Shown here: positions 5,688-23,990 of the stretch, piece by piece
Layout of the letters: each line of letters starts with the position of its first letter
Position numbering within the stretch: position 1 is the first letter of the stretch
NCBI GenBank assembly: GCA_017405765.1
Contig: JAFQZS010000051.1
Coordinates: 1 to 59,599, forward strand
Reading direction: 5' to 3'
Origin: Clostridia bacterium
Lineage (GTDB): Bacteria; Bacillota; Clostridia; Oscillospirales; RGIG577
Length of the DNA stretch: 59,599 nucleotides
Made by a program: the position numbers and the translations under genes
The notes under the pieces: generated by a model
The model's database searches: none
The model's input: the letters and a program-made list of their open reading frames with translations, nothing else
What the model was told of the DNA's origin: nothing

Positions 5688-5968
5688 AAAAAGACCCTTC
5701 CTCAACGTAAATACGTCAAGGACGAGTCTTATAAGCTCGCGGTGCCACCTTGATTCGGAAAAAAACTTTTCCGCACTCTTTGAGATACCATCATATCCCC
5801 GGCAACTTACGTATGCCTTCACGTCGCCGAATACTCAAAAGAAACCTCTTTCTTTGTTCGACGCCCTCAGCGGCCCATTTGACAGCTTGTTTTCCGCCGG
5901 GCTCTCACCTGCCCCGACTCTCTGTGGGAACATCACTGCCGTTACTTCCGCTTCAACGGTTTTTATTG
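5688..5968 (-). promoter_or_regulatory. Tryptophan T-box riboswitch leader of the trp operon
   Basis: The minus-strand leader shows a stem I region with AGAGAGTCGGGGC and GGTGAGAGCC, then a specifier segment AAATGGGCCGCTGAG. The specifier codon reads UGG (5875-5877), Trp. The T-box sequence AAGGTGGCACCGCG is at 5738-5751, where TGGC can pair with uncharged tRNA-CCA. A terminator hairpin built on GACTCGTCC...GGAAGGGTC ends in TTTTTT (5688-5728). Uncharged tRNA-Trp should favour antitermination into trpB. The 5' end is inferred from the promoter at 5975-6003. Confidence 0.93.
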
Positions 5969-9561: not shown

Positions 9562-9587
9562 AAAAGTAGTAAGCGAGTAGTAAATCC
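9562..9587. other. Left-end integrase arm-type binding sites (Tn916 DR2-like pair)
   Basis: Two GTAGTAA direct repeats (9566-9572 and 9577-9583) are spaced 11 bp apart. The second, in GAGTAGTAAATCC, closely matches the GAGTAGTAAATTC-type site bound by the Tn916 Int N-terminal domain, as I recall it. A matching pair with the same 11-bp spacing and orientation is at 23968-23990. Confidence 0.65.
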
Positions 9588-9597
9588 CCGCCGTTTC

Positions 9598-10791
9598 TCA
9601 CGCTGTCAATCGCTTCATTTCCGCCCTCGCGGAGTCAAACGAAGCGTGTGCGTAGTAGTTCAGCGTCATGGTGATGTTCGCGTGTCCCATGATGTACTGC
9701 AGGGCTTTGGGATTGATACCCGCATTGGCTAAATTGGTGCAAAAGGTGTGCCGCAGGACATGGGCTGAAAACATCTTCGGCAAAGGCGCTTCGTGACACT
9801 TATTGTACTTCTTCGCAAGATTGAGAAGCGTCATGGCGTAGTTTGATGCTGTCTTGGGGTAGCCGTCCCGCTTCAGAAACAGGAAATCGGTATAGCCTTC
9901 AATGATGATCGGATTTGCACCTTTGCGATTGTCCCGCACCCGCAGAAACGCCTGATAGACCTTCTCGCTCATGTGGATCTGACGTATGCCGCTTTTGGTC
10001 TTGGGGGTCGAGATGTAGTAGCCCTTTTCCTTGCAGCGCAGAAGCTGATGGTCTACATGGATTTTCCGTTCCTCAAAGTCCACGTCAGCAATCGTCAGTC
10101 CGCACAGCTCGGAAATGCGAAGCCCTGTTCCCAGCAGAATCACGATCTCGTCATAGTATTTGCAGTAGACGCTGTCGCTCTGCACAAACGCTAACAGGCT
10201 TTCCTCCTGCTCCGGGGTAAGAGGTTCCTTCGGCTCCGTGTCGTCCTCCAATACATCGGTGATTGGGAAGTCAAACGGATTTTTACGCACACAGTCGTTT
10301 TGTATCGCTGAATAGAATGCAGCGTTCAGAGATCGCTTGTCGTTGCGGATGGTGCTGAACGCAACGCCCTTTTCCTTCATTCTGAGCGCCCACTCTTTCG
10401 CGTCTGACATTTTTACGCTGTCGATGGGGCAACTTCCGATTGGGTCCTCTTTCAGCATACGCATGAGTCGGCTGCGGCTGCGGGTGGTATTGTATTTCAC
10501 ATTCCCGCGGTGGCGTATCTGCTGTGCGTAAAGCTCGCAGACGGTCATCTTCTTGCCGAGGGTATCTATTCCGTCGTCGATATCCCGCCGTATCTCCTGC
10601 TCCTTTTCCCTTAGAGAAATATCCTCCCGCTTTCCTGCGGGCGTCTTATCCGTAGGTACAAGCTTCCATGCGTAAACGAACTGCGACTTGCCGAAGGCGT
10701 CCACATATTTGTAAGCATATCTTCCGTCTTTTCTCTGGCTCTCTCCTGACCGCAAAACACGATTTTTGCTGTCTCGTCTCTTTTCTGACAT
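9598..10791 (-). CDS. int: Tn916-family tyrosine recombinase (integrase)
   Basis: 397 aa, close to Tn916 Int in length and in recognisable segments. An N-terminal arm-binding domain (about 1-65, SGESQRKDGRYAYKYVD) is followed by a core-binding SAM-like domain (about 85-180) and a catalytic domain. Visible catalytic residues are Arg225 (GTGLRISEL), Lys264 (TPKTKSG), His344-x-x-Arg347 (HVLRH), His370 (MGHAN) and Tyr379/380 (LNYYAH). It should excise and integrate the island about 9.5-24.0 kb. It reads toward the left end with GGAG before ATG. Isoleucine codons are mostly ATC/ATT, unlike the ATA-rich neighbours outside the island, which fits transfer. Confidence 0.96.
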   Translation of the reverse strand: MSEKRRDSKNRVLRSGESQRKDGRYAYKYVDAFGKSQFVYAWKLVPTDKTPAGKREDISLREKEQEIRRDIDDGIDTLGKKMTVCELYAQQIRHRGNVKYNTTRSRSRLMRMLKEDPIGSCPIDSVKMSDAKEWALRMKEKGVAFSTIRNDKRSLNAAFYSAIQNDCVRKNPFDFPITDVLEDDTEPKEPLTPEQEESLLAFVQSDSVYCKYYDEIVILLGTGLRISELCGLTIADVDFEERKIHVDHQLLRCKEKGYYISTPKTKSGIRQIHMSEKVYQAFLRVRDNRKGANPIIIEGYTDFLFLKRDGYPKTASNYAMTLLNLAKKYNKCHEAPLPKMFSAHVLRHTFCTNLANAGINPKALQYIMGHANITMTLNYYAHASFDSARAEMKRLTA

Positions 10792-10880: not shown

Positions 10881-11090
10881 TTAAATAGCGTCCAGACTGT
10901 CAATCACCTTTTCAAACTGCTTGCGCTTGATTTGAATGCGGTTGCCGTTCATAATGACCCAGCCTGCGGCGGGATTTTCCTCTGCAAGTCTCCGCAGCTT
11001 GTTTTCGCCTATGCGGAAATAGCGGGACGCCTCCTCAATGGTGAGCGTATATTTTTCCCAGATGGGAACATCGGTCTTATTCAAAATCAT
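10881..11090 (-). CDS. xis: Tn916-type excisionase Xis
   Basis: 69 aa, winged-helix MerR/excisionase-like. [20 protein letters not shown] and the C-terminal [14 protein letters not shown] closely match Tn916 Xis as I know it. ATG at 11090 has GGAGG six bases upstream, inside the end of the ParB-like gene (14-nt overlap). A longer upstream frame exists but is just the other frame of that gene. It bends DNA at the element ends to favour excision by Int. Confidence 0.93.
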
Positions 11091-11997
11091 CTCCTCCCTC
11101 CAATTTGAGAATATATTGTTTCGGTTTCTGCATGACTTCAATGACCTTCGCCTTGTAGTCCGGCTTTTCCAACAGACCGGGGAAATTGTCAAAGAGAACG
11201 TCGCAGCATTCAATCATATTCTCCGCCACATAGCGCAGACTTACCATCGCTGAATCCTCGTCGGCACGTTTGGGTGCTTTCATATCCTCGTAGCTTTTGT
11301 CGATTGCCGCATAAGCCTGTTTCCATCGCTTCGTATTATCGGCTTTGGGCTTCTTTTCCGGGATTGCCCTGAGCTGTTCCGCTTTTTCCCTGCGCTCCTC
11401 CGGGGATGCACGGGCGACAGCCGCCACATCGGTTTCGCGAGGCTTAAACTTTCCAAGGAGCAGGTCGTTCTTAATGCCAGGAAGCACTTCTTCGGCGGCG
11501 TCAACTCCCTGAGCATACCAATCCGCTCGCATCACATAGCTCTCACTTGTATTAGTTTCCTCCGCTATTTTTGTTCGCGTACCATGAGCCCTGTGGTCTG
11601 GTTCATTTTGAACCAGACCACTTTCGCCCAATAAAGTGTGCTGATTTCCGTTAAAATCAAGTATGCTTTTCTCGGCAGCATATCGCTCGCCTATGAGATA
11701 TTTCTTCTGCTGGGGCGTGAGGTTTCGCCGTCCGAGCTGGTTCTTGCAAATCCATGAGAGCGCTTCGTATTTATTGTTGAACGGTTTTTCATGGATGCGG
11801 AACTCGATGCCCGGATGATCCAGTGCGATGCGGTAGCGGTTATGACCGTCCACAATCGTGTTGTTCCACACGATGATAGGTGTCAGAATAAGCCCTTCCT
11901 CCAGGATGTTTTCTTCGAGCTGCGAAAGCTCGTCCTCGGTCAAAGGCGGGCACTTCGCCTCAAACTCCGGATCAATTACCAAAATGCGCTTCATCAT
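11077..11997 (-). CDS. ParB/Spo0J-like nuclease-domain protein
   Basis: 306 aa from ATG 11997 (GGAGGA four bases upstream; a second ATG follows at 11994). The N-terminal ParB-like domain spans about residues 10-90, with [20 protein letters not shown] and the signature [10 protein letters not shown], then an HTH-like stretch ([19 protein letters not shown], and [18 protein letters not shown] near 150). The C-terminal third is charged and unrecognised. Family members in mobile elements act in partition or transcription control. It overlaps xis, so the two are probably co-transcribed from somewhere in the repeat region 12.0-13.0 kb. Confidence 0.85.
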
Positions 11998-12097
11998 GAT
12001 TCCTCCGTTTCTTTTTGGGTATATCAGTTGTTTTGTGATTTCCAGTTTTGCTGTGATGCTTTCGCGTCGAGATTGTTTTCTTCCGCGTCGAGATTGT

Positions 12098-12960
12098 CCT
12101 TTCACCCTACAACGGACATTTTTACGCCGAATGTCAGGTATCGCCTGAAAAAGAGTTTGCTTTTTGCTGACGGCTGCCAGGGATAAAAACGATTCCGGAA
12201 GGTTACGAATACTGAGTTCATTTCGTGTTCTCCTGTTTTGTTGTGTCGCTTCCGCGGTTAAATTGTCCTCCCACTTTTCAATGGACATTTTTTCGAGCTT
12301 ATTCAACCGTCGACAAAATGGATTTTTGCTTTTTTGATAGTCCATGACGTAATGCTGCTCCGTTTTTTTCCGAATCCTCGGCAACGCTGCCCGCAGAAAA
12401 CTCAAAATGGTGTGCTGTGTCCGGATACCGGGGCTTTCGGATGAGCTGGCGATTACCGGGGCAAAAAATCAATTCCGCCGCAACGAAGACTGAGTTCATT
12501 TCCTGATCTCCTGCTTAGCTGTGACACTCTGCAAAGACTAAATTTTCGTATCCACTTGCGGCGAAATTGTCCTCTCACCCTACAACGGACATTTTTTTGA
12601 GCTTTTTAAACCATCCGCATAAATTTTTTTTGCTTTTTCGATAGGCCATGACGTTATGCCGTTCCGATTTTTCCCGAATCCTCGGCGACGCTGCCTGCGG
12701 AAAATGTAAAACGGTACGCTTTGTCCGGATATACCGGGGCTTTCGGACGAGCTGGCGATTGCTCGGGCAAAAAGCCAATTCCGGAAGATGCAGAAGGCTG
12801 AGTTTATATTGTGTTCCTCCCACTTTTCAATGGACATTTTTCTGCCGAATGTCAGGTATCGTCAGAAATATTTTTTTGATAGTCTATGGCGTTGTGAAGT
12901 TCCGAGATTCTTCTCCCACTTTTCAATGGACATTTCGGAAAGCTTTTTTACCCATTGCCA
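12098..12960 (-). repeat. Five-copy degenerate repeat array upstream of the ParB-like gene
   Basis: A core reading AAATGTCC(A/G)TTG...GTG(A/G)GAGG on the minus strand recurs at 12098-12123, 12267-12293, 12571-12598, 12816-12841 and 12913-12935. Copies 1 and 3 share CACCCTACAACGGACATTTT (plus strand); 2, 4 and 5 share CCCACTTTTCAATGGACATT. Longer homology follows: copies 1 and 4 are followed by GCCGAATGTCAGGTATCG, and the units at about 12300-12500 and 12605-12790 are alignable along most of their length. Small frames begin ATGAACTCAG after SD-like sites, but homologous units use different frames, so I do not call them genes. Confidence 0.8.
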
Positions 12961-13095
12961 AAAATATATTTTGGGGGTGAACTGAATTCGTCGAACAACT
13001 CTTGTCGCCCTCAACGCGCATGTTTCCAGTTGAAAGAAACAAAAAAAGCACCGGAACGGTGCGCAGCCGATTTTGCAGAAATCGTTCAAAGGGGT

Positions 13096-13113
13096 TTGGG
13101 GAGCTTTCCCCAA
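13096..13113. other. oriT-like inverted repeat
   Basis: TTGGGGA (13096-13102) and TCCCCAA (13107-13113) form a perfect 7-bp stem with a four-base loop, within GGGGTTTGGGGAGCTTTCCC. Such repeats often mark origins of transfer ahead of mobilisation genes in Clostridia. No relaxase is present in the window, so this is a candidate for mobilisation in trans or a remnant. Confidence 0.35.
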
Positions 13114-13176
13114 CAAGCGAAAAGTGGCTCCAAGCCGCCTTGCTTGCCAGAACTTAATCTGAGCGGCACATCGACA

Positions 13177-13205: not shown

Positions 13206-13247
13206 TATGCTATATCTTTGACCAGTCGAAGTAAAGGAGACGCGGAC

Positions 13248-13475
13248 ATGAGTTTTTCTGAAGAATTAAAAAGCATCCGGCAGCACTCTTTCCTGTCACA
13301 GGAGGCTTTTGCGCGTGAGCTGAATGTTTCGTTTTCTTCCGTCAACCGGTGGGAAGGCGGCAGAGCGAAACCGAATCTCAACGCCATGAAGAATATAAAA
13401 GCGTTTTGCGAAACACACGATATAGATTTCTCCCGTCTCGAAAGAGAATGGCACGAGATGGGCAAGGAGGACTGA
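13248..13475 (+). CDS. Xre-family HTH regulator
   Basis: 75 aa, a single Cro/C1-type helix-turn-helix covering most of the protein: LKSIRQHSFLSQEAFARELN (helices 1-2), then VSFSSVNRWEGGRAKPNLN (recognition helix). ATG at 13248 has AAAGGAGA eight bases upstream. It is the first gene of the restriction-modification operon, five bases before hsdM, and probably autoregulates it so that methylation precedes restriction, like C proteins. It could alternatively pair as antitoxin with the RES-like gene two genes downstream, though I see no DUF2384-type C-terminal domain. Confidence 0.88.
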   Translation: MSFSEELKSIRQHSFLSQEAFARELNVSFSSVNRWEGGRAKPNLNAMKNIKAFCETHDIDFSRLEREWHEMGKED

Positions 13476-13480
13476 CTGAA

Positions 13481-15043
13481 ATGGCAGATATAAAAAAAGA
13501 ACAGGACGCCCTGTTCAGTACGATATATAAAATGGCCACCGATCTGGTACACGCAGGTCATGTCTCGGAGTGGGATTTCAAATCCTATGTGTTTGTAACG
13601 ATGTTTTACCGCTACATATCCGAGAATCTTACTGCGTACATCAATGCCGGTGAGCGCGCCGCCGGCGATGCGGATTTTGATTATGCCAAGCTGTCTGATA
13701 CGGACGCCGAGGGTGCGCGCGAGGGGCTTATTCAGGAAAAAGGCTTTTTCATCCTTCCCTCTGAGCTTTTCGGAAATGTGCTGAGAAACGCAAGAAATAA
13801 TGAAAATCTCAACGAAACGATAGAAGGTGTATTCCGTCATATTGAAGAATCTGCAAAAGGCAGCGATTCGGAAAGCAGCTTCTCCGGTCTGTTTGATGAT
13901 TTTGATGTCAACAGCAAATCCATCGGCGAGACCGTAGCAAAAAGGAACGAGGTGCTTGTTGACCTTCTCGAAGGCGTAAACCGGATGCCGCTGTACAGCT
14001 CCGAAGGTCTCAATGCCGATCTGTTCGGAGACGCTTATGAATATCTCATGGGCATGTATGCGGCAAACGCAGGCAAAAAGGGCGGTCAGTATTTCACGCC
14101 TGCGGACGTTTCTGAGCTTCTTGCGCGTCTCGGAACAATCGGCAAAACGGACGTGAACAAGGTATATGATCCCGCCTGCGGTTCGGGGTCTCTATTGCTC
14201 AAGGCCGAGCGCGTTCTCGGCAAGGGGCACATCCGTCAGGGCTTTTTCGGACAGGAGATTGACCTTACGACATATAACCTGTGCCGCATCAATATGTTTC
14301 TGCACAATATAGAATTTGACAAGTTCAGCATTGTCCGCGAGGATACGCTTATGGCTCCCCAACACTGGGATGACGAGCCGTTTGACCTTATCGTCTGCAA
14401 TCCGCCGTTCTCCAGACCGTGGAAAGCGTCAAGCAATCCCGTTCTGATCAACGATCCGCGATTCGCGCCTGCCGGTGTTTTGGCTCCCGATTCCAAGGGG
14501 GACTTGGCATTCGTTATGCACTGCCTGTCATGGCTTTCGGCAGACGGCGCGGCTGCAATCGTATGCTTCCCCGGCATCATGTATCGCGGAGGAGCGGAAC
14601 AGAAAATCCGAAAGTATCTGATCGATAACAACTTCGTGGACGCTGTGATCCAACTCCCGGCGAACCTGTTCCTTAACGTGACCATTTCCGTTGATATCAT
14701 GGTTCTGCGGAAGAACAAGAAGGGCAATCGGGTATTGTTTGTGGATGCCTCCGGCGAATGCGTTAAGGTCACGAAGAATAACAGGCTTTCCGATGACAAT
14801 ATTGCCCGTATCGTGAGCGCGGTGGCGAATCATAGCGAGATCAAACATTTCTCTCATCTGGCGAGCTATGACGAAGTCGCGGAGAACGGCTATAACCTTT
14901 CCGTTTCCACCTATGTGGAGGCGGAGGATACTCGCGAGAAAATCGACATCAAAAAACTGAATGCCGAGATTGAGGAGATCGTCGCACGTGAGGCGACCCT
15001 CCGGGAAGAAATAAATCGTATTATTATGGAGATTGAGATATGA
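13481..15043 (+). CDS. hsdM: Type I restriction-modification methyltransferase subunit HsdM
   Basis: 520 aa. N-terminal HsdM_N helical domain (about 1-150, beginning KKEQDALFSTIYKMATDL), then the N6-adenine methyltransferase domain with SAM motif YDPACGSGSLLLKAE (about residue 229) and catalytic motif NPPF (about 307). With HsdS it methylates adenine in the split recognition site. I chose ATG 13481, with GGAGG about 11 bases upstream in the end of xre; a longer frame upstream is only the alternate frame of xre. All catalytic motifs are intact. It overlaps the next gene by ATGA. Confidence 0.97.
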   Translation: MADIKKEQDALFSTIYKMATDLVHAGHVSEWDFKSYVFVTMFYRYISENLTAYINAGERAAGDADFDYAKLSDTDAEGAREGLIQEKGFFILPSELFGNVLRNARNNENLNETIEGVFRHIEESAKGSDSESSFSGLFDDFDVNSKSIGETVAKRNEVLVDLLEGVNRMPLYSSEGLNADLFGDAYEYLMGMYAANAGKKGGQYFTPADVSELLARLGTIGKTDVNKVYDPACGSGSLLLKAERVLGKGHIRQGFFGQEIDLTTYNLCRINMFLHNIEFDKFSIVREDTLMAPQHWDDEPFDLIVCNPPFSRPWKASSNPVLINDPRFAPAGVLAPDSKGDLAFVMHCLSWLSADGAAAIVCFPGIMYRGGAEQKIRKYLIDNNFVDAVIQLPANLFLNVTISVDIMVLRKNKKGNRVLFVDASGECVKVTKNNRLSDDNIARIVSAVANHSEIKHFSHLASYDEVAENGYNLSVSTYVEAEDTREKIDIKKLNAEIEEIVAREATLREEINRIIMEIEI

Positions 15044-15777
15044 GTTGGGGCAGAGTCTTTAAAAGTCAAGATTATGGACGTCCAACATACAAGCACAAAG
15101 ACCTGCCTGTTTATATTACTGATGAGTTTGATTTCTTCCGCTGTGTCGAATTCAATGACGGCTTATATAAAAAAACAGCATCTGAATTGTTTGCTGGGAA
15201 CCTACGCATGTGTAACGGACGATATTCTTTCTTATTTCCCGGTATGAAGATATCATATTGGGCTGATAGTCCTCAGACCGCGAGAGCTGAAATTAAAAAA
15301 CATGGTGCAGGCAACAATATATTGACCTTTTGGGCTTACGATGACGGAACCAGTACATTTCCGACGTTGCCGACACAAGATCCTCTTATCATTGTTGATG
15401 GACGGAAGTGCGGTGTGCAAGATTTGATAGACAAGGCCGACGCACAAGTTCCTTTAACCGAAAGAGAAAAAAGCTTGTTAGAGCAAATACTATCCACAGA
15501 ACCAGACTGTTTGGCTTTTGACTCCCATGCGATAAATGGCGGAGAGAATTTCATCTTTTTTGAAAAGGGCTTCAAAAAGCTGTCTTTGCGGCAGTTAAGG
15601 CTTCGCTTTGGGCGAAAGGACGGAGGAAGTCACAGTCGTATAGTATGTGCGGATTCATGTGATTACACCCCATTCATAGAGGCGTATGGTAAGTTCTTTT
15701 TACCAAAGGCAAGGCTTGGAATGGATAATAATTACCTTGAGTCTGATGAATATAGGATTCGGAAGAAAAATCTGTGA
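15040..15777 (+). CDS. Uncharacterised protein with possible RES-like domain, embedded in the hsd operon
   Basis: 245 aa, no signal or membrane segment. I do not firmly recognise it. Three blocks resemble the RES (Arg-Glu-Ser) fold of NAD-degrading or ADP-ribosylating toxins: NGRYSFLFPG (Arg61), SYWADSPQTARAEI (Glu84), and CLAFDSHAINGGENFIFF (Ser162). Spacing and order fit the family, but the similarity is by eye. It overlaps hsdM by ATGA and ends inside the hsdS leader, so it is co-translated with the RM genes. It could be an abortive-infection effector triggered when the RM complex is compromised, a regulator of restriction, or something else. Possible false positive for RES: N-terminal half has no familiar domain. 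Confidence 0.75.
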   Translation: MSWGRVFKSQDYGRPTYKHKDLPVYITDEFDFFRCVEFNDGLYKKTASELFAGNLRMCNGRYSFLFPGMKISYWADSPQTARAEIKKHGAGNNILTFWAYDDGTSTFPTLPTQDPLIIVDGRKCGVQDLIDKADAQVPLTEREKSLLEQILSTEPDCLAFDSHAINGGENFIFFEKGFKKLSLRQLRLRFGRKDGGSHSRIVCADSCDYTPFIEAYGKFFLPKARLGMDNNYLESDEYRIRKKNL

Positions 15778-15809
15778 TGAGTCATATAAAAGAATGCAGG
15801 AGGCAGTAC

Positions 15810-17663
15810 ATGAATAGATTGGGAGAACTTATAAAAGAATACTGCACTAATGGCGTTGAATATAAGCGTTTAGGTGAAATCGGCCCTGTTTGTATGTGTA
15901 AAAGGATTTTGAAATCACAAACCAACAGTGAAGGCGGTATACCGTTCTATAAAATTGGGACATTTGGCGGAGTTGCAGATTCATATATCTCTGAAGAGCT
16001 ATTTAACGAATACAAAAGTAAGTATTCATATCCGAAGGCTGGAGAAGTATTGATATCAGCCGCTGGTACAATAGGAAGAAGCGTCATTTTTAACGGTGAG
16101 TCTTCTTATTTTCAAGACTCAAATATTGTATGGGTTTCAAATGACGAAACACAAGTTCTAAATAAGTATCTTTTCTATTGCTATCAATTGTCCCCTTGGA
16201 GTATTTCATCCGGTGGGACTATTGCAAGGTTGTATAATGACAATATTTTGAAAGCAAAGATCCCTGTCCCTCCCATAGAGGTGCAGCGTGAAATTGTCCG
16301 TATCCTGGACAATTTCACGGAGCTTACAGCGGAGCTTACAGCGGAGCTTACAGCGGAGCTTACAGCGGAGCTTACAGCGCGGAAGAAACAGTATGAATAC
16401 TATAGGGATGCGTTGCTGGATGTGCGCAAGGAAATCCCTGTCGTTAAGCTCAAGGAGATCGCCACAGAGATGTTCCGTGGAGCTGGCATCAAGCGCGAGG
16501 AAGTGACCGAGGAAGGTATCCCTTGCGTCCGTTACGGCGAGATATATACGACCTACAACACATGGTTCGATACTTGCGTATCCCATACGAAGCTTGAATA
16601 TGTGCCGTCTCCTAAGTATTTTGAGTATGGTGATATTCTGTTTGCTATCACCGGGGAAAGCGTGGAGGATATTGCAAAATCCGTCGCATATGTAGGGCAT
16701 GACCGCTGCCTTGCAGGTGGTGACATTGTGGTGATGAAGCACAAGCAGAACCCGCGCTATCTTGCCCATGTCCTCTCTACCACTTATGCGAGAGAGCAGA
16801 AAAGCAAGGGCAAGGTCAAAAGCAAGGTGGTTCATTCCAATGTGCCGTCTATTGAAAATATAGAGATACCGTTGCCACCTCTGGATGTGCAGGAGCGATA
16901 TGCGAATGTGCTGGATAGTTTTGAGGCTATATGTAATGACCTCAACATCGGTCTCCCGGCAGAAATCAGCGCAAGGCAAAAACAGTACGAATATTACAGA
17001 GATTTGCTATTGACATTCGCCGAGACCGGAAACACAATCGTTAGACAGACAGACAGACAGGCTGAAATAGCGCTTTTGCAGTATGTGTTTGGGTATGCGG
17101 AGGTGCAGTTGCAGGATGTGGCTGAATATAGAAGTCAGAGAATCGATGCCGCTGAAATTGACGAGAACTCCTACATTGGGGTAGATAATCTTCTTCCAGA
17201 TAAAGGCGGTCGCAAGCCTTCAGAATACGTTCCAATTGAAGGTCGGCTTATCCGATTCGAGGCAAACGATGTTTTGATCGGAAACATCAGGCCATACTTA
17301 AAGAAAATATGGCTTTCTGACTGTTCAGGCGGCACGAATGGAGACGTCCTCACCGTAGGTATCCATGATGATGTGGAAGTATATCCACGGTACCTGTATT
17401 ATGTCCTTTCCTCCGAAAGGTTCTTTGCTTATGACAACCAATATGCAAAAGGAGCAAAGATGCCGCGTGGGAACAAAGATGCTGTGATGCAATATTGTTT
17501 TGCATTACCATCTTACTCCGAGCAAATAAGAATTGCCGGATTATTAGACCGTTTTGATGCCCTATGCAATGACATCACTAAGGGGCTTCCCGCCGAGATA
17601 GAGGCTCGTAGACAGCAGTACGAGTATTACAGAGATAAGCTGCTGACATTCAAAGAAGTATAA
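15810..17663 (+). CDS. hsdS: Type I specificity subunit HsdS with three target-recognition domains
   Basis: 617 aa from ATG 15810 (AGGAGG six bases upstream); typical HsdS is about 400-450 aa with two TRDs. Order: TRD1 (about 10-160), conserved helix 1 (EVQREIVRILDNFTELTA...RKKQYEYYRD), TRD2 (about 210-355), helix 2 (LDVQERYANVLDSF...ARQKQYEYYRDLLLTF), TRD3 (about 420-560), helix 3 (SEQIRIAGLLDRFDAL...ARRQQYEYYRDKLLTF). Helix 1 contains five ELTA repeats (residues 171-190). A (AGAC)4AG tract at 17043-17060 joins helix 2 to TRD3; one unit lost or gained gives a stop after 418 or 419 residues, a normal two-TRD subunit. TRD1 is AT-richer than the rest, as is usual for exchanged TRDs. Confidence 0.94.
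   Translation: MNRLGELIKEYCTNGVEYKRLGEIGPVCMCKRILKSQTNSEGGIPFYKIGTFGGVADSYISEELFNEYKSKYSYPKAGEVLISAAGTIGRSVIFNGESSYFQDSNIVWVSNDETQVLNKYLFYCYQLSPWSISSGGTIARLYNDNILKAKIPVPPIEVQREIVRILDNFTELTAELTAELTAELTAELTARKKQYEYYRDALLDVRKEIPVVKLKEIATEMFRGAGIKREEVTEEGIPCVRYGEIYTTYNTWFDTCVSHTKLEYVPSPKYFEYGDILFAITGESVEDIAKSVAYVGHDRCLAGGDIVVMKHKQNPRYLAHVLSTTYAREQKSKGKVKSKVVHSNVPSIENIEIPLPPLDVQERYANVLDSFEAICNDLNIGLPAEISARQKQYEYYRDLLLTFAETGNTIVRQTDRQAEIALLQYVFGYAEVQLQDVAEYRSQRIDAAEIDENSYIGVDNLLPDKGGRKPSEYVPIEGRLIRFEANDVLIGNIRPYLKKIWLSDCSGGTNGDVLTVGIHDDVEVYPRYLYYVLSSERFFAYDNQYAKGAKMPRGNKDAVMQYCFALPSYSEQIRIAGLLDRFDALCNDITKGLPAEIEARRQQYEYYRDKLLTFKEV
16320..16379 (+). repeat. Five tandem 12-bp GAGCTTACAGCG repeats in hsdS
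   Basis: Five perfect units encode ELTA x5 in the spacer helix between TRD1 and TRD2. In EcoR124I/EcoR124II, a change from two to three TAEL units alters the length of the non-specific spacer in the recognised site, so unit-number change here should do the same while keeping frame. Confidence 0.97.
17043..17060 (+). repeat. (AGAC)4AG tetranucleotide tract in hsdS
   Basis: 18 bp of AGAC repeats encode RQTDRQ between helix 2 and TRD3. Removing one unit gives V-R-Q-T-D-R-L-K-stop; adding one gives V-R-Q-T-D-R-Q-T-G-stop. Only changes in multiples of three units keep TRD3 in frame. Confidence 0.97.
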
Positions 17664-17681
17664 ACCCAAGGAGGTGGCATC

Positions 17682-20600
17682 TTGCCGTACTTCAACATTG
17701 TGGCTCAGACCACGGAAAATACAGTCGTTACGGAATACGAACCCGTAAAGGCCCGCTCTGACAGCTATCAGAGCGAGGCGGAGCTTGAACGGGAGTTCAT
17801 TCGTATGCTCACGGAGCAGGGCTATGAATACCTGTCGATCCATACGGAAGCGGAGCTGCTTGCCAATCTACGCACACAGCTTGAAAAGTTGAACGGCTAT
17901 ACCTTCACCGATTCCGAGTGGAGCCGTTTCCTCAAGGAAAGCGTTGCCAATCCCAATGAGCATATTGTGGAAAAGACCCGGAAGATACAGGAGGATTTCG
18001 TACAGGTGCTCCGCCGCGACGACGGCAGCAGCAAGAATATCCTGCTGATTGACAAGAAGAACGTGCATAATAATTTCCTGCAAGTCATCAATCAGTATTC
18101 TGTCGGGCAGGATGTCGGGGCGAAGCACGATAACCGCTATGATGTTACCGTTCTCGTCAACGGTCTGCCGCTTGTGCATATCGAGCTGAAACGGCGCGGC
18201 GTTGCTATCCGGGAGGCGTTCAATCAGATCAACCGCTATCAGCGTGATTCTTTCTAGGCAGGATGCGGACTGTTCGAGTATGTGCAAATCTTCGTCATCA
18301 GCAACGGCACGAATACGAAGTATTATTCCAACAGCACCCGCTTCAATGCTATAAAGGATGCGAATTCCTCCAAAGCAAAAAAGGAGAAGACTTCCAATAG
18401 CTTTGAGTTCACATCCTATTGGGCAGACAGCAACAATGTGGTGATCCCTGATCTGATTGATTTTACACGGACGTTTTTCGCACGGCACACCATTCTGAAT
18501 GTGCTGACGAAGTACTGTATTTTCACATCCGAGAATATGCTCATGGTCATGCGTCCGTATCAGATCACGGCAACGGAACGCATCCTCAACCGCATTGAGA
18601 TCGCCACGAACTACAAGAAGTATGGCAGCGTGGCGGGAGGCGGCTATATCTGGCATACCACCGGCTCCGGCAAGACGCTGACCTCCTTCAAGACGGCGCG
18701 GCTGGCTTCCAATCTGCCCTATATAGACAAGGTGCTTTTCGTGGTTGACCGCAAAGATTTGGACTATCAGACCATGAAGGAATATGACCGCTTTGAGAAA
18801 GGCGCTGCCAACAGTAATACTTCTACCGCAATCCTAAAGCGGCAGCTTGAAGACCCGAATGCACATATCATTATCACAACCATTCAGAAGCTGTCCACCT
18901 TCGTAAAAAAGAATCCTGGACATGAAGTTTATCACAAGCACGTTGTTATTATCTTTGACGAATGCCACCGCAGCCAGTTCGGTGATATGCATACGGCAAT
19001 CGTAAAGAATTTTAAGAAATATCATCTGTTCGGCTTTACCGGGACGCCGATTTTTGCGGCGAATGCCGGAGCGGTTAGGAACACGCAGTTTTTCACCACT
19101 GAGCAGACCTTCGGCGATCAATTGCACACCTATACCATCGTGGACGCCATCAATGATAAAAACGTTCTGCCGTTCCGCGTGGATTACATCAAGACGATGG
19201 ATACCGACCCGGATATTGACGATAAGAACGTCTGGGATATCGACCGAGAGAAAGCGTTCATGGCACCGAAGCGCATCGAACTTGTCACACGGTACATTCT
19301 GGAGCATTTTGACCAAAAGACATATCGCGGGGATAAGACTTACATTTTCAATACACTGACGAACATTTCGGAGGTAGCGTCTGCCGCCCGTGGCGCTGTT
19401 GAGGAGATAAAGCAGAAACAACGCATCAGCGGATTCAACAGCATTTTTTGCGTTGCCTCCGTTCCGATGGCAAGATTATACTACGAGGAATTCAAAAAGC
19501 AGATGGCTGCCGACCCTGCGCGTTCGCTCCGTATAGCAACTATTTACAGTTATGGTGCGAACGAGGAAGAGGCTGACGGCATCCTTGATGAAGAGAACTC
19601 TGAGGACACATCCGCTTTGGATCAGTCCTCTCGTGATTTTCTTGAAGCCTGCATCTGTGATTACAACGGGATGTTTCATACCAATTATTCTACGGACGGA
19701 GACCGGTTCCAGAATTACTATAAAGATGTATCACTCCGTATGAAGAACAAGGAGCTTGATCTGCTGATTGTGGTCAATATGTTCCTCACGGGTTTTGATG
19801 CCACCACGCTGAATACGCTATGGGTAGATAAGAATCTGAAAATGCACGGTCTGATACAGGCGTTCAGCCGCACAAATCGTATCCTAAACAGCATAAAAAC
19901 TTTCGGCAATATCATCTGTTTTCGCAATTTGCAAAAACGTGTTGATGATGCCATTTCGCTGTTCGGCGACAAAAATGCGTCCGGCATCGTACTGATGCAG
20001 ACATTCAAGGATTACTACTACGGTTTCATCGGCCCCGACGACAAGCATCATCCCGGCTATGTAGATATGATAGATGAGCTGACGGACAGATTTCCGCTCA
20101 CCGTGCCGCAGATCATTGGAGAGCAGAACCAGAAGGAGTTTATCGCACTGTTCGGCTCGATCCTGCGTATGCGAAACCTTCTCGTCTCCTTCGATGATTT
20201 TGCCGGGAAGGAGATTCTCACCGAGCGCGATCTGCAGGATTACCTCGGTCGCTATCAGGATCTGCGCGACGAATGGCGTGGTCGCAAACCCGGCGGCGAT
20301 AAAGAGGATATCACGGACGATGTAATCTTTGAGGTGGAGCTGATCCGCCAGATTGAGATTAATATCGATTACATCCTTCTGCTCGTGAAAAAGTTCCATG
20401 ACAGCCATTGCCAGGACAAAGAAGTGCTGATTACCATCCGTAAGGCTGTGGACGCATCGCCGGAGTTGCGCAGCAAGAAGGCACTCATCGAAACATTCAT
20501 TGCCGGAATTAACGATGTGGATGACGTTATGTTGGAGTGGCGCACGTTCGTTGCCGAGGAACGGGAGAAGCAACTCGTCCAAATCATTACGGAGGAGAAT

Positions 20601-20813
20601 CTGAAAGAGGAAGAGACACGCAAGTTCATGGAGGATTCTTTCCGCAACGGCGAGATAAAAACGACCGGTACAGATATTGAGAAGATTCTGCCTCCCGTCT
20701 CCCGCTTCGGAGGCGGCAACCGTACCCAAAAGAAGCAGACAGTCATCGATAAGCTGAAAGTTTTCTTCGAGCGGTTCTTCGGCATCGGATCGTCGGAGTT
20801 TTCAAAGCAATAA
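17682..20813 (+). pseudogene. hsdR: Type I restriction subunit HsdR, interrupted by one in-frame amber codon
   Basis: A single frame from TTG 17682 (AAGGAGG about 7 bases upstream) to 20813 encodes a complete HsdR except for TAG at 18255-18257, codon 192. The stop follows INRYQRDSF and precedes AGCGLFEYVQIFV; the missing residue is expected to be Trp, so TGG-to-TAG explains it. Before the stop is the nuclease domain (YDVTVLVNGLPLVHIELKRRG, then FNQINRY). After it are the SF2 helicase motifs: TTGSGKTLTSF, FDECHRSQFGDM, GFTGTPIF and AFSRTNRI. The helicase part (18282-20813, 843 aa) is otherwise intact. Likely no restriction, unless the stop is suppressed or is a sequence error. Confidence 0.9.
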
Positions 20814-20937
20814 ATAGGTGGCTGCCTTTTGCGATGGACCCGTTCGCATTTTGAGAGAACAAGATAGCGCCAAACATGTTCAACATGATTATACAATGGG
20901 CCGATTATTTGCTGCGGCATGAGACGAGGGGATTAAT

Positions 20938-23898
20938 ATGTATGAGAAAGAACTGCAAAGAATATTAAACGCTTCACAGAATAATGCACTTACGTTTTTC
21001 GTTGGTGCAGGCGTATCAAAACTCTCCGGAGCACCGACGTGGAAAGAGTTGATTGACGCAATTAGTGTCAAACTGGAACAACTACCCCAAAAAAAATATT
21101 CTTCCGATGAATCTCTTCAAATTCCGCAGATGTTTTATTATTCTTTAGGGGAGAACAAGGCAGAGTACTATAAGTTCGTCAAGGAACAGTTGTATTCTTC
21201 TTCATTGTTGCCAAATACCATCCATCGGGAAATGCTGAACCTAAATCCGGTATCCTTTATTACTACCAACTATGACACGCTACTGGAAGATGCGGCGATC
21301 CAGTATTGTCAAAGCTTTAAGGTAGTCTCACGAGATGAAGACGTTCCAACCGTTTTTGGAGATAGGTTTATACTAAAACTACACGGGGATTTTAAGCATA
21401 ATAATTTTGTGCTGAAGGAAGAGGACTACCTCAACTACAGCGAAAACTTCAAATTGATTGAAACCCTGGTAAAATCTATTTTTTCCACCAACACTGTTGT
21501 TTTTATAGGATACAGCCTTAATGATTATAATATTAAACTGATTCTTAACTGGACGAAAACACTACTTAAGGGTAGCTTCCGAGAGCCTATCTTCCTTTAT
21601 GTTGGTAGCTCGGCCCTTACAGATACTGAACTTATTTATCATCAGTCAAAGGGACTCGCAGTTATCGAGTTGAATAAACTCTTGCCTCCAACTGACGACT
21701 ACTTGAATCGCTACAATGCGATCTTTGCTGCGTTAAAGAATCAATCTAAACTGTCATTAGACGGAAAATCAGAGGATGAAGCGTTTGAGATTCTATACAA
21801 TTTGCTTCGACCCTTAAATCGATTAAATGCCCTTCGAATCGGAGATATTTCAAAAAGACTGTATCCCTACGTCAGAATAAGGGACACTGGAGTTATAAGC
21901 TATCCTCAAAATGATAGCCTGATATTAAAAAAGTTCTTTGCAATAAATCAATTATCATTGGCTGAACAAAATGCACTTTCAAAAGATGTATTGGCTAAAT
22001 ATCACTGCATTTTAGATGTCTTCCGAAAGGCGAGAGTATTAGAGGTAGAAGATAACCACAAGCACAGGCAGTTTATTACTGATGGAGTGCCTTTTGCTGA
22101 CAGGAATTGCATTCTATTCGATTATACACACATGCACACCTTTTCAGCAAAGACATACAAGTCAATCGAAAGCAATTATAGAAAGGCTTTTTATCTGTCC
22201 CGGCTGAGAAGATATGACGAAGCATTTTTCCTTTTTTCAGAAGTTACAAAGCAAGCGTTTAAGGCAGAGAACTATCTGTTGTACTATCTTGCTGAATCTA
22301 ACTGTATTAGCTTACGCAAAGTAATAAAGAATGTTAATACATGGTATCGCTGTTATGATATAGATGCAGTTGAAGCCTTATCACCAAATGATTCGGAGAT
22401 TGAAAATCTGTTTAGGCATTTGCCAGTGGAATTCAGGAGTACATATGACAACTTAACAGATATTCATAGTCCGGATTTGCTTTATAAATACGCTTATGAG
22501 TCGTTTGTTGATGGGCAAAAGCTGCAAAAGGCGATAGAATCCGGTTCAACAGAATTTGGATTAACAAGCAGCGGTAAGGCGGTTTGTCGAGTAAACGATT
22601 ATTTGCATTTCTTGCTTGGAAATGGAATTGTAGCAGATGTATTCTCCGAGTATAGAATTGCAGTGAAGAATCTGATGTCCCTGTTAGTATACAAGTACTC
22701 CACACAGGGAAAGAAAGTATTGCATGAGCGGCTATTTCCTTTTATTGAAGGGAATGACATTTATTTCGATGAAATCGATTTTCACTGTTTCGTAGAGTAT
22801 TTTGATGCAAAGGAAATAGTAGAGTTGCTGGACAAATATCACATTGAAACAATCGAGTTTCAGAATATGTCTTTGGTTGAGACCGCTGTAAACAACTTAT
22901 TGGATTACTACAGTTATGCGGTCAAATCTACAAAAAACAACATTGATGTTATTGGGTTGCAAACGCAAATTAAGAATTGCCTCGCATTACTCAGATATGT
23001 CAGCGTTTCGCAGGGCTTGGTTGATAAGATATGCGGCTTCATCCTAACACAAGAATTCAGGGAAATATTGATAAATGATAAGGTTCTTTTCCTTGATCGC
23101 CAACTGGCGAAAAGGAAAATGTATAGCGAAACAACAAGGAAAATCGTAGAGGATACATTGATTTCTTATTTGGATAAGAAGATTTCTGCACTGAAAAAGG
23201 GCGAGAAGTTTGAGTTGCCCTCAACAAGCACGGGTATCAATTATTTCAATCTTGTTCATTACATCTCTGCACCAGAGGAAAAATACTATTCACGAAGACT
23301 GTCTGTGAGAATCTCGCAGATTATTAATAATAATCTGTCCCAGATGTATGATCAGATAACCCAGCACTACTGCGGATATGTCTCAAAGAATCAGCAGAAA
23401 AAGCTTATCACATGGGCTAACAAACTAATACAAACGAATTTTAGCTTTAATTTATTTACAATGCTTATTCAATGTGATGCGCGTATTAGTAAAGTAGTTA
23501 ATATTCAACTGAAGGAATTCCTTAAGCAAAGAATAGATGCGGCTAAAAAAACAAATAACAATGGTGTAGTCGTATATCCAGCTAGACAACCATACGAAGA
23601 ATTAGATCGGGTCGGTTATTGGTGTTTGCTCAATATCCTCAAAGCGAAGGATTTCCAGGAATTTCTTGGTAATAGTGCGGTGTTTGACTTCTATTGTGAA
23701 TACACTAAATTCGATTTCGATAGGTTTGACGTTTCATGGCTATTACATCTTTTCCCGCATACATTGGAACAGATTGCAAAAAATGGAAAGGTCAAAGAAC
23801 ATATACGAGTTGCTATTGCAACTTCATTGAAAGATAAAGGAATAGCAATATCAGACCACCAACGACTTCAAGACATTCTCGTCAAACATTTTTGCTGA
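20938..23898 (+). CDS. SIR2-domain anti-phage protein, DSR2-like (probable NADase)
   Basis: 986 aa. Residues 1-250 are a SIR2 domain: FFVGAGVSKLSGAP (21-33), TTNYDTL (109-115), KLHGD (147-151), FIGYSLND (189-196). Putative catalytic Asn111 and His149 are 38 residues apart, the same as DSR2 Asn133 and His171 as I recall. No zinc Cys quartet, so not a protein deacetylase. The remaining 730 residues are helical and unrecognised; in DSR-type proteins this part senses phage proteins. It follows hsdR by 124 bp with its own GAGGGGAT site. Base composition is clearly more AT-rich than hsdM/hsdR, suggesting separate acquisition. Other SIR2 Abi families remain possible. Confidence 0.82.
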   Translation: MYEKELQRILNASQNNALTFFVGAGVSKLSGAPTWKELIDAISVKLEQLPQKKYSSDESLQIPQMFYYSLGENKAEYYKFVKEQLYSSSLLPNTIHREMLNLNPVSFITTNYDTLLEDAAIQYCQSFKVVSRDEDVPTVFGDRFILKLHGDFKHNNFVLKEEDYLNYSENFKLIETLVKSIFSTNTVVFIGYSLNDYNIKLILNWTKTLLKGSFREPIFLYVGSSALTDTELIYHQSKGLAVIELNKLLPPTDDYLNRYNAIFAALKNQSKLSLDGKSEDEAFEILYNLLRPLNRLNALRIGDISKRLYPYVRIRDTGVISYPQNDSLILKKFFAINQLSLAEQNALSKDVLAKYHCILDVFRKARVLEVEDNHKHRQFITDGVPFADRNCILFDYTHMHTFSAKTYKSIESNYRKAFYLSRLRRYDEAFFLFSEVTKQAFKAENYLLYYLAESNCISLRKVIKNVNTWYRCYDIDAVEALSPNDSEIENLFRHLPVEFRSTYDNLTDIHSPDLLYKYAYESFVDGQKLQKAIESGSTEFGLTSSGKAVCRVNDYLHFLLGNGIVADVFSEYRIAVKNLMSLLVYKYSTQGKKVLHERLFPFIEGNDIYFDEIDFHCFVEYFDAKEIVELLDKYHIETIEFQNMSLVETAVNNLLDYYSYAVKSTKNNIDVIGLQTQIKNCLALLRYVSVSQGLVDKICGFILTQEFREILINDKVLFLDRQLAKRKMYSETTRKIVEDTLISYLDKKISALKKGEKFELPSTSTGINYFNLVHYISAPEEKYYSRRLSVRISQIINNNLSQMYDQITQHYCGYVSKNQQKKLITWANKLIQTNFSFNLFTMLIQCDARISKVVNIQLKEFLKQRIDAAKKTNNNGVVVYPARQPYEELDRVGYWCLLNILKAKDFQEFLGNSAVFDFYCEYTKFDFDRFDVSWLLHLFPHTLEQIAKNGKVKEHIRVAIATSLKDKGIAISDHQRLQDILVKHFC

Positions 23899-23967: not shown

Positions 23968-23990
23968 AAAAGTAGTAAATCGGTAGTAAA
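23968..23990. other. Right-end integrase arm-type binding sites (Tn916 DR2-like pair)
   Basis: AAAAGTAGTAA followed by GGTAGTAAA gives two GTAGTAA repeats 11 bp apart (23972-23978 and 23983-23989), matching the left-end pair in sequence, spacing and orientation. The surrounding gap 23899-24213 holds only this pair and, near 24057, a TATAAT with a poor -35. The island's right junction should lie shortly after 23990. Confidence 0.65.

Follow-up and report, generated by a model that had tools for sequence, protein, structure and literature searches.

SigO-RsoA of Bacillus is a two-part sigma factor in which a region-4-like domain occurs without region 2. Among integrative islands, SGI1 has an xis gene that is switched on by AcaCD of its helper, as outlined in PMC4605294. 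IMEs that have no relaxase are also described (PMC5704250), and the nic motifs given for Tn1549 and pRJ6 are RYGCTTG|C and TGCTTG|CCA, respectively (PMC7755788). The locus analysed here lies in a window of 59,599 nucleotides (the whole stretch of DNA studied, contig JAFQZS010000051.1 of the Clostridia bacterium assembly GCA_017405765.1) and has an array of repeated cores ahead of ParB-like, xis and integrase genes. The best explanation of this array is that it consists of five tandem control boxes of about 62 bp, of the kind that heads excision and mobilization operons of mobile elements in Clostridia.

Organization of the array

The five minus-strand cores described in the original prediction are borne out. 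A pattern scan of the window with AAATGTCCRTTGWARRGTGRRRGGACA finds each of them with 0-2 mismatches (Table 1), and 100 dinucleotide shuffles give 0 matches. The core has two versions, ATTGAAAAG in three copies and GTTGTAGGG in two, and the flank GCCGAATGTCAGGTATCG is shared, as had been claimed, on the 3′ side of the cores at 12095 and 12813. Versions of core and flank are uncoupled: flank type GATACCTGACATTCGGC is found with one core of each version. The GGAGG that was thought to end each core is literally present in two of the five, but the wider consensus is RRGG. Similarly, the cores are real, but the conserved unit is larger, extending from about −37 to +24 around each of them, and a core makes up the 3′ half of a box of about 62 nt. 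The DNA between the cores has longer degenerate repeats (174 nt at 80% and 53 nt at 89%), whose reading frame differs from unit to unit, as noted earlier. An ORF of 66 aa lies between boxes 3 and 4 (12299-12499, minus strand) and has a similar 73-aa counterpart in locus L060; its homologous unit within the window is frameshifted.

The whole array is known from two genomes only, that of the window and a Mogibacterium MAG (L060), in which seven boxes adjoin the ParB-like gene and the same nic pattern lies upstream. The part of the degenerate repeats that lies outside the boxes has its second occurrence only in L060. Between the two arrays, the cores are identical at 123 of 135 positions (91%) and the inter-box DNA at 444 of 569 (78%; Fisher p = 4e-4), while whole boxes are identical at 267 of 303 (p = 2e-4 against the same inter-box DNA) and the 5′ halves of the boxes at 86%. 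For the ParB-like gene, nucleotide identity is 90%. The slower change of the cores upholds the view that DNA, or RNA, is conserved here rather than protein. In L060, the one full relative found, no intact protein gene spans the array, contrary to what a pseudogene cluster would predict.

Table 1. Features of the array and of the element around it (window coordinates)
Feature	Position	Strand	Basis or class
Five cores	12095-12121, 12264-12290, 12568-12594, 12813-12839, 12909-12935	−	Pattern AAATGTCCRTTGWARRGTGRRRGGACA
Box 1	12912..12972	−	Spacer class beta (GGGTAAAAAAGC); core version ATTGAAAAG; PWM score 45.7
Box 2	12816..12876	−	Spacer class alpha (GATACCTGACATTCGGC); core version ATTGAAAAG; PWM score 66.2
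Box 3	12571..12631	−	Spacer class beta; core version GTTGTAGGG; PWM score 64.7
Box 4	12267..12327	−	Spacer class beta; core version ATTGAAAAG; PWM score 51.6
Box 5	12098..12158	−	Spacer class alpha; core version GTTGTAGGG; PWM score 67.1
Degenerate repeats lying between boxes 5 and 2, not counting boxes 3 and 4	12159..12815	−	Alignments
ParB-like gene, first after the array	11077..11997 (ATG at 11997)	−	Weak PHROG ParB-like matches
Excisionase, Tn916-Xis family	10881..11213	−	PF09035, E 3.5e-19
Tyrosine integrase with Tn916-type arm-binding domain	9598..10791	−	PF00589, PF02920
Left end with AGTAGTAA as direct repeats, putative arm sites of the integrase	9562..9586	.	
Right end, AGTAGTAA direct repeats	23968..23990	.	
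Terminator-like hairpin and T-run, upstream of the array	13048..13062	−	Shape only
Inverted-repeat block GCTTGTTGGGGAAAGCTCCCCAAACCCC	13091..13118	−	Present too in a Tn1549-type element, where it lies between oriT and mobC
oriT-like nic region TGGCTCCAAGCCGCCTTGCTTG|CCA, MOBP type	13125..13149	+	Nic motif comparison
HTH regulator beyond the oriT-like site and divergent from the array	13218..13475	+	PF13560, PF01381
Cargo: hsdM, specificity-subunit-like ORF, hsdR, SIR2/Dsr2-like gene	13349..23898	+	NCBIfam

Consensus and distribution of the box

The box begins with an AAAAWTTTTT tract, which is followed by a variable stretch and then by AAAAAATGTCCGTTGTAAAGTGARRGG. Read more closely from 5′ to 3′, the tract is succeeded by a stretch of weak conservation whose start resembles TACC, then by an A-run and TGTCCGTTGTAAAGTGARRGG. 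The logo of 76 aligned non-redundant units is sharp-edged, with conservation from −37 to +24. A weight matrix (PWM) built from 64 such units gives all five window copies 45.7-67.1 bits, with no match in shuffled or reversed sequence. A tiny ORF within the box (ATG TCC GTT GTA AAG TGA) was considered and, by eye, rejected: its third codon positions are nearly invariant and its stop codon is changed to TGG in some window copies.

The core is present with at most two mismatches in 5 of 295 genomes of the order, the window's own genome counted. An exact 24-nt pattern finds it in 69 stretches of the GTDB genome collection, nearly all of them Clostridia by record title. Two viral-collection contigs found by pattern scan provide two further loci, and one locus (L090) came from a MobC protein search. 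Array DNA gave no match among plasmids and, among phages, one faecal contig covering 13% of the query. Searches by core strings or by topic found no published description of the box among the matches listed; judged by title, none of the listed papers with core strings concerns mobile elements. A lone box in Flavonifractor sp. An82 (L004 / L053) sits amid ordinary chromosomal genes, with no mobile-element genes seen nearby, and has a near-perfect inverted repeat, AAAATGTCC...GGACATTTT. At four other loci (L023, L024, L026 and L056), the T-tract of the box sometimes also looks, by eye, like the T-run that completes a terminator-like hairpin immediately upstream.

Gene context of the boxes

There is good support for the box family and for its association with genes. 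Among 72 box-bearing loci, a count that includes same-lineage copies, mobC is next to the box in 32 and xis/int in 14, a gene for a sigma-region-4-like (sigma4-like) protein is directly upstream in 17, and 9 have none of these. The xis operon of the window is preceded by the box family that also lies ahead of mobC and behind sigma4-like genes. The genes after the box are always on the box strand (mobC 32/32, xis/int 14/14). A start codon was identified in 28 of the 32 mobC loci; in 23 of these 28 the box ends 8-13 nt 5′ of that start, which probably places the 3′ end of the box within the transcript. Clusters linked to the sigma4-like gene have a single box (17/17), and those linked to mobC have several in 15/32.

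MOBP nic motifs are separate from the box, roughly 70-250 nt away in several loci. The Tn1549-type nic motif may be on either side of the box, and its orientation to mobC flips while that of the box is constant. The box is therefore not an oriT, and the cores were rejected as such; the motif RYGCTTG|C is also absent from the box consensus.

The sigma4-like protein and the variable stretch

By sequence, the sigma4-like protein has at most weak matches to sigma region 4, while its predicted C-terminal domain resembles the ‘-35 promoter binding’ domains 3hug, 2h27 and 3vfz in Foldseek, with a target TM of about 0.7-0.8 and weak E-values (best 0.026 among the matches listed). A profile made from ten of these proteins was searched in 295 genomes without reference to the box. 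All nine strong matches (E below 1e-40), five of which are in genomes already reached by the box search, have a box with at most two mismatches 22-79 nt past the stop codon. The 11 weak paralogues have none even at four mismatches, and 32 of 2000 random 240-nt windows, taken from a box-enriched pool, have one at two. The sigma4-like gene is found in 9 of 42 genomes with mobC or xis-int boxes (three with other boxes included); with the cut-off unchanged, the order sample has it in 10 of 295 (p = 1e-4). It is enriched in box-bearing genomes and is not required there. Since the complete genome G323, which holds the xis-int box of L043, has no sigma4-like gene, the protein cannot be the sole reader of every box. 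In five loci of the sigma4 type (L016, L025, L035, L037 and L074), the leader downstream of the box contains a pemK RNA (RF02913), which lies outside the box and precedes serine recombinases or a PemK/MazF-like gene.

Some elements have both a sigma4-linked and a mobC-type box, several kb apart, and the two often share their variable stretch. In G172 both boxes have GGTACTCAACAAACG, as they do in the related G314 and G322; the shared stretch is CCGGACAAACGG in G312 and CCGCTAATT in G096, and in G299 the two stretches differ. Ranked by variable stretch, a box finds its own partner first of 15 in three of the four lineages that have both kinds. The remaining sigma4 regions (G213, G035, G084, G193, G272 and G296) showed no second box within the stretches taken. 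A stretch common to both boxes of one element points to an element-borne factor that reads it, and the best candidate for this reader is the sigma4-like protein.

The window has three boxes with beta stretches, which resemble those of sigma4-linked boxes in L074 and L017, and two with alpha stretches, which resemble those in L016 and L081. Each of the five spacers agrees with that of a sigma4-linked box at 13-16 of 19 positions: box 1 with that of L017 (15/19), boxes 3 and 4 with that of L074 (15/19 and 16/19), and boxes 2 and 5 with that of L081 (14/19 and 13/19). Among boxes without the sigma4-like gene, 29/112 reach at least 15/19 to a sigma4-linked spacer, compared with 0.6% in column shuffles, a null that ignores common descent and so inflates the spacer statistics. 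The region of box 2 also aligns to L016 (84% over 63 nt), and that of box 3 to L074 (79%, 119 nt) and L017 (77.6%, 125 nt). Since this homology of about 120 nt extends beyond box 3 on both sides, at least some window boxes look as if they were copied from sigma4 regulator loci.

The element that carries the array

The element is about 14.4 kb long between its putative AGTAGTAA ends. The ParB-like gene matches 0 NCBIfam families, and its relatives in L018 and L019 are 76 and 74% identical to it. Terminator-like sites number two, against 2.4 expected in shuffles. Profile searches of the window's own genome (99% complete, 54 contigs) find the integrase and excisionase and no sigma4-like, MobC (PF21983) or relaxase (PF03432) match. 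Of the cargo, hsdM and hsdR pass the curated NCBIfam cut-offs, and the specificity-like and Dsr2-like matches fall short. The SIR2-domain protein at 20938-23898 (plus strand), whose similarity to Dsr2 is weak and well below the cut-off, adjoins the type I restriction-modification genes, and this combination suggests a mobile defence island. The hsdR gene is apparently split between ORFs at 17682-18257 and 18282-20813 (plus strand), the second of which matches the HsdR profile from position 170; a frameshift or an assembly error is a possible cause. Elsewhere in the window, a T-box leader (5715-5965, minus strand) lies upstream of an ORF that we take to be tryptophan-synthase-beta-like.

Proposed function and alternative explanations

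The box family, its geometry, direction and gene association, the sharing of the stretch within an element and the slower change of boxes than of inter-box DNA are all observed directly. Whether the array is a set of promoter-like boxes with two specificities, which let the regulator of a helper switch on parB-xis-int much as AcaCD acts on SGI1, is in our judgement an even question. The geometry fits a promoter with −35 and −10 regions, and the boxes point toward their genes in 46/46 cases. The A/T tract would be an UP element and the variable stretch the −35 region read by the sigma4-like protein; TGTCCG, 17 nt after the −35 stretch, would be the −10 region, with a start near +15, and RRGG(AGG) would be the ribosome site. 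In many elements the gene for the sigma4-like protein lies immediately ahead of one box, and some of them have another box with the same stretch at the head of mobC-relaxase. In a cell where a helper is active and supplies a sigma4-like regulator that matches, parB-xis-int would be switched on from the array, expression of Xis would excise the island, and the helper relaxase could then act on the oriT-like site. Helpers of either the alpha or the beta type could thus wake an island whose own genome shows no sigma4-like match. We infer promoter function, sigma4 binding, helper sensing and transfer from the sequences. A broader proposal is tentative and rather doubtful: that relaxase-less defence islands of Clostridia collect boxes of several specificities, copied from conjugative elements together with the ends of regulator genes, and so can be excised and mobilized by several unrelated helpers, each with a private sigma4-like/−35 signal.

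Several features fit a promoter read by the sigma4-like protein less well. Promoters are not usually conserved beyond the −10 region, as the boxes are through TTGTAAAGTGARRGG, the A/T tract is better conserved than the −35 region, and 33/42 genomes with mobC, xis-int or other boxes have no sigma4-like gene. The continued conservation and the missing gene, together with a box end so close to the mobC start that its 3′ part is probably in the mRNA, favour a serious rival, in which the boxes are operators of the transfer and excision operons, or 5′-UTR RNA elements acting in translation or antitermination, read by some other factor of the host or element. We consider this rival possible, with a probability well short of even. 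A pairing pattern common to the RNAs is not seen by eye, and both the sharing of the stretch by boxes of one element and the constant position of the box behind sigma4 genes agree with a reader that acts on DNA. No curated covariance model (Rfam) matches in the array, so it is not a known structured RNA, and the suggested tandem leader RNAs find no support so far as a known family.

The other explanations have much lower probabilities. That the boxes are relaxosome or oriT-type sites for MobC-like accessory proteins is improbable, even though mobC adjoins the box in 32/72 loci, many of them tandem, and the window array adjoins an oriT-like site, since the MOBP nic motifs are separate and flip relative to mobC when the box does not, 31/72 loci are xis-int or sigma4 contexts, and mobC and oriT occur without a box in the Tn1549-type plasmid copy examined. 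We think it just as unlikely that the boxes are a functionless by-product, that is, duplicated 3′ ends of sigma4-like genes plus leader, kept by recent copying only. The flanks of boxes 1, 3 and 4 do resemble degenerate sigma4 gene ends plus leader in DNA alignments to L017, L074 and L060, and the inter-box DNA is frameshifted between units, but a profile search finds no significant sigma4 remnant in the window array. The earlier idea of a decaying repeated gene start accordingly holds only for some flanks, and for the 3′ end of a gene rather than its start; between the window and L060, the boxes themselves have diverged less than the DNA that separates them (p = 2e-4), and they stay at five or seven in the two elements and form multi-box clusters ahead of mobC in 15/32 loci. 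A parS-like partition site for the ParB-like protein, also proposed originally, is hardly credible: the array abuts that gene in the window and L060, but the protein has weak ParB matches only and, since its gene is downstream in only 4/72 box-bearing loci, this reading is unsupported.

Significance and comparison with known systems

The box provides a sequence tag for excision and transfer operons in a large, poorly studied set of gut-Clostridia elements, and also gives the sigma4-like proteins, an unstudied family, a testable job. If helper sensing is true, sequence would predict which conjugative elements mobilize which islands, restriction/SIR2 islands included, and a single mobile element would be tuned to several helpers at once.

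With its integrase and xis, oriT-like site, cargo and lack of a MOBP relaxase match (PF03432), the element resembles the relaxase-less IMEs; a helper, a box array and defence cargo are not described in the part of PMC5704250 compared here. It shares with MOBP elements of the Tn1549 type an oriT-like nic and the GCTTGTTGGGG inverted-repeat block, and related elements have the MobC and relaxase partners. However, the Tn1549-type copy examined (pMG2200, L089) has no box, and the window element has no MobC or relaxase match. In domain make-up, a region-4-like domain without region 2, the sigma4-like protein is comparable to SigO-RsoA. As far as they are covered by the source used, SGI1 and related islands with an IncA/C helper are similar in being integrative and helper-dependent, with an xis that here, too, would answer to a helper-encoded regulator. 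The regulator there is AcaCD, of the FlhDC type, whereas here it would be a sigma-region-4-like protein, the host belongs to a different phylum, and the arrays of the window and L060 have five to seven tandem boxes with two variable stretches.
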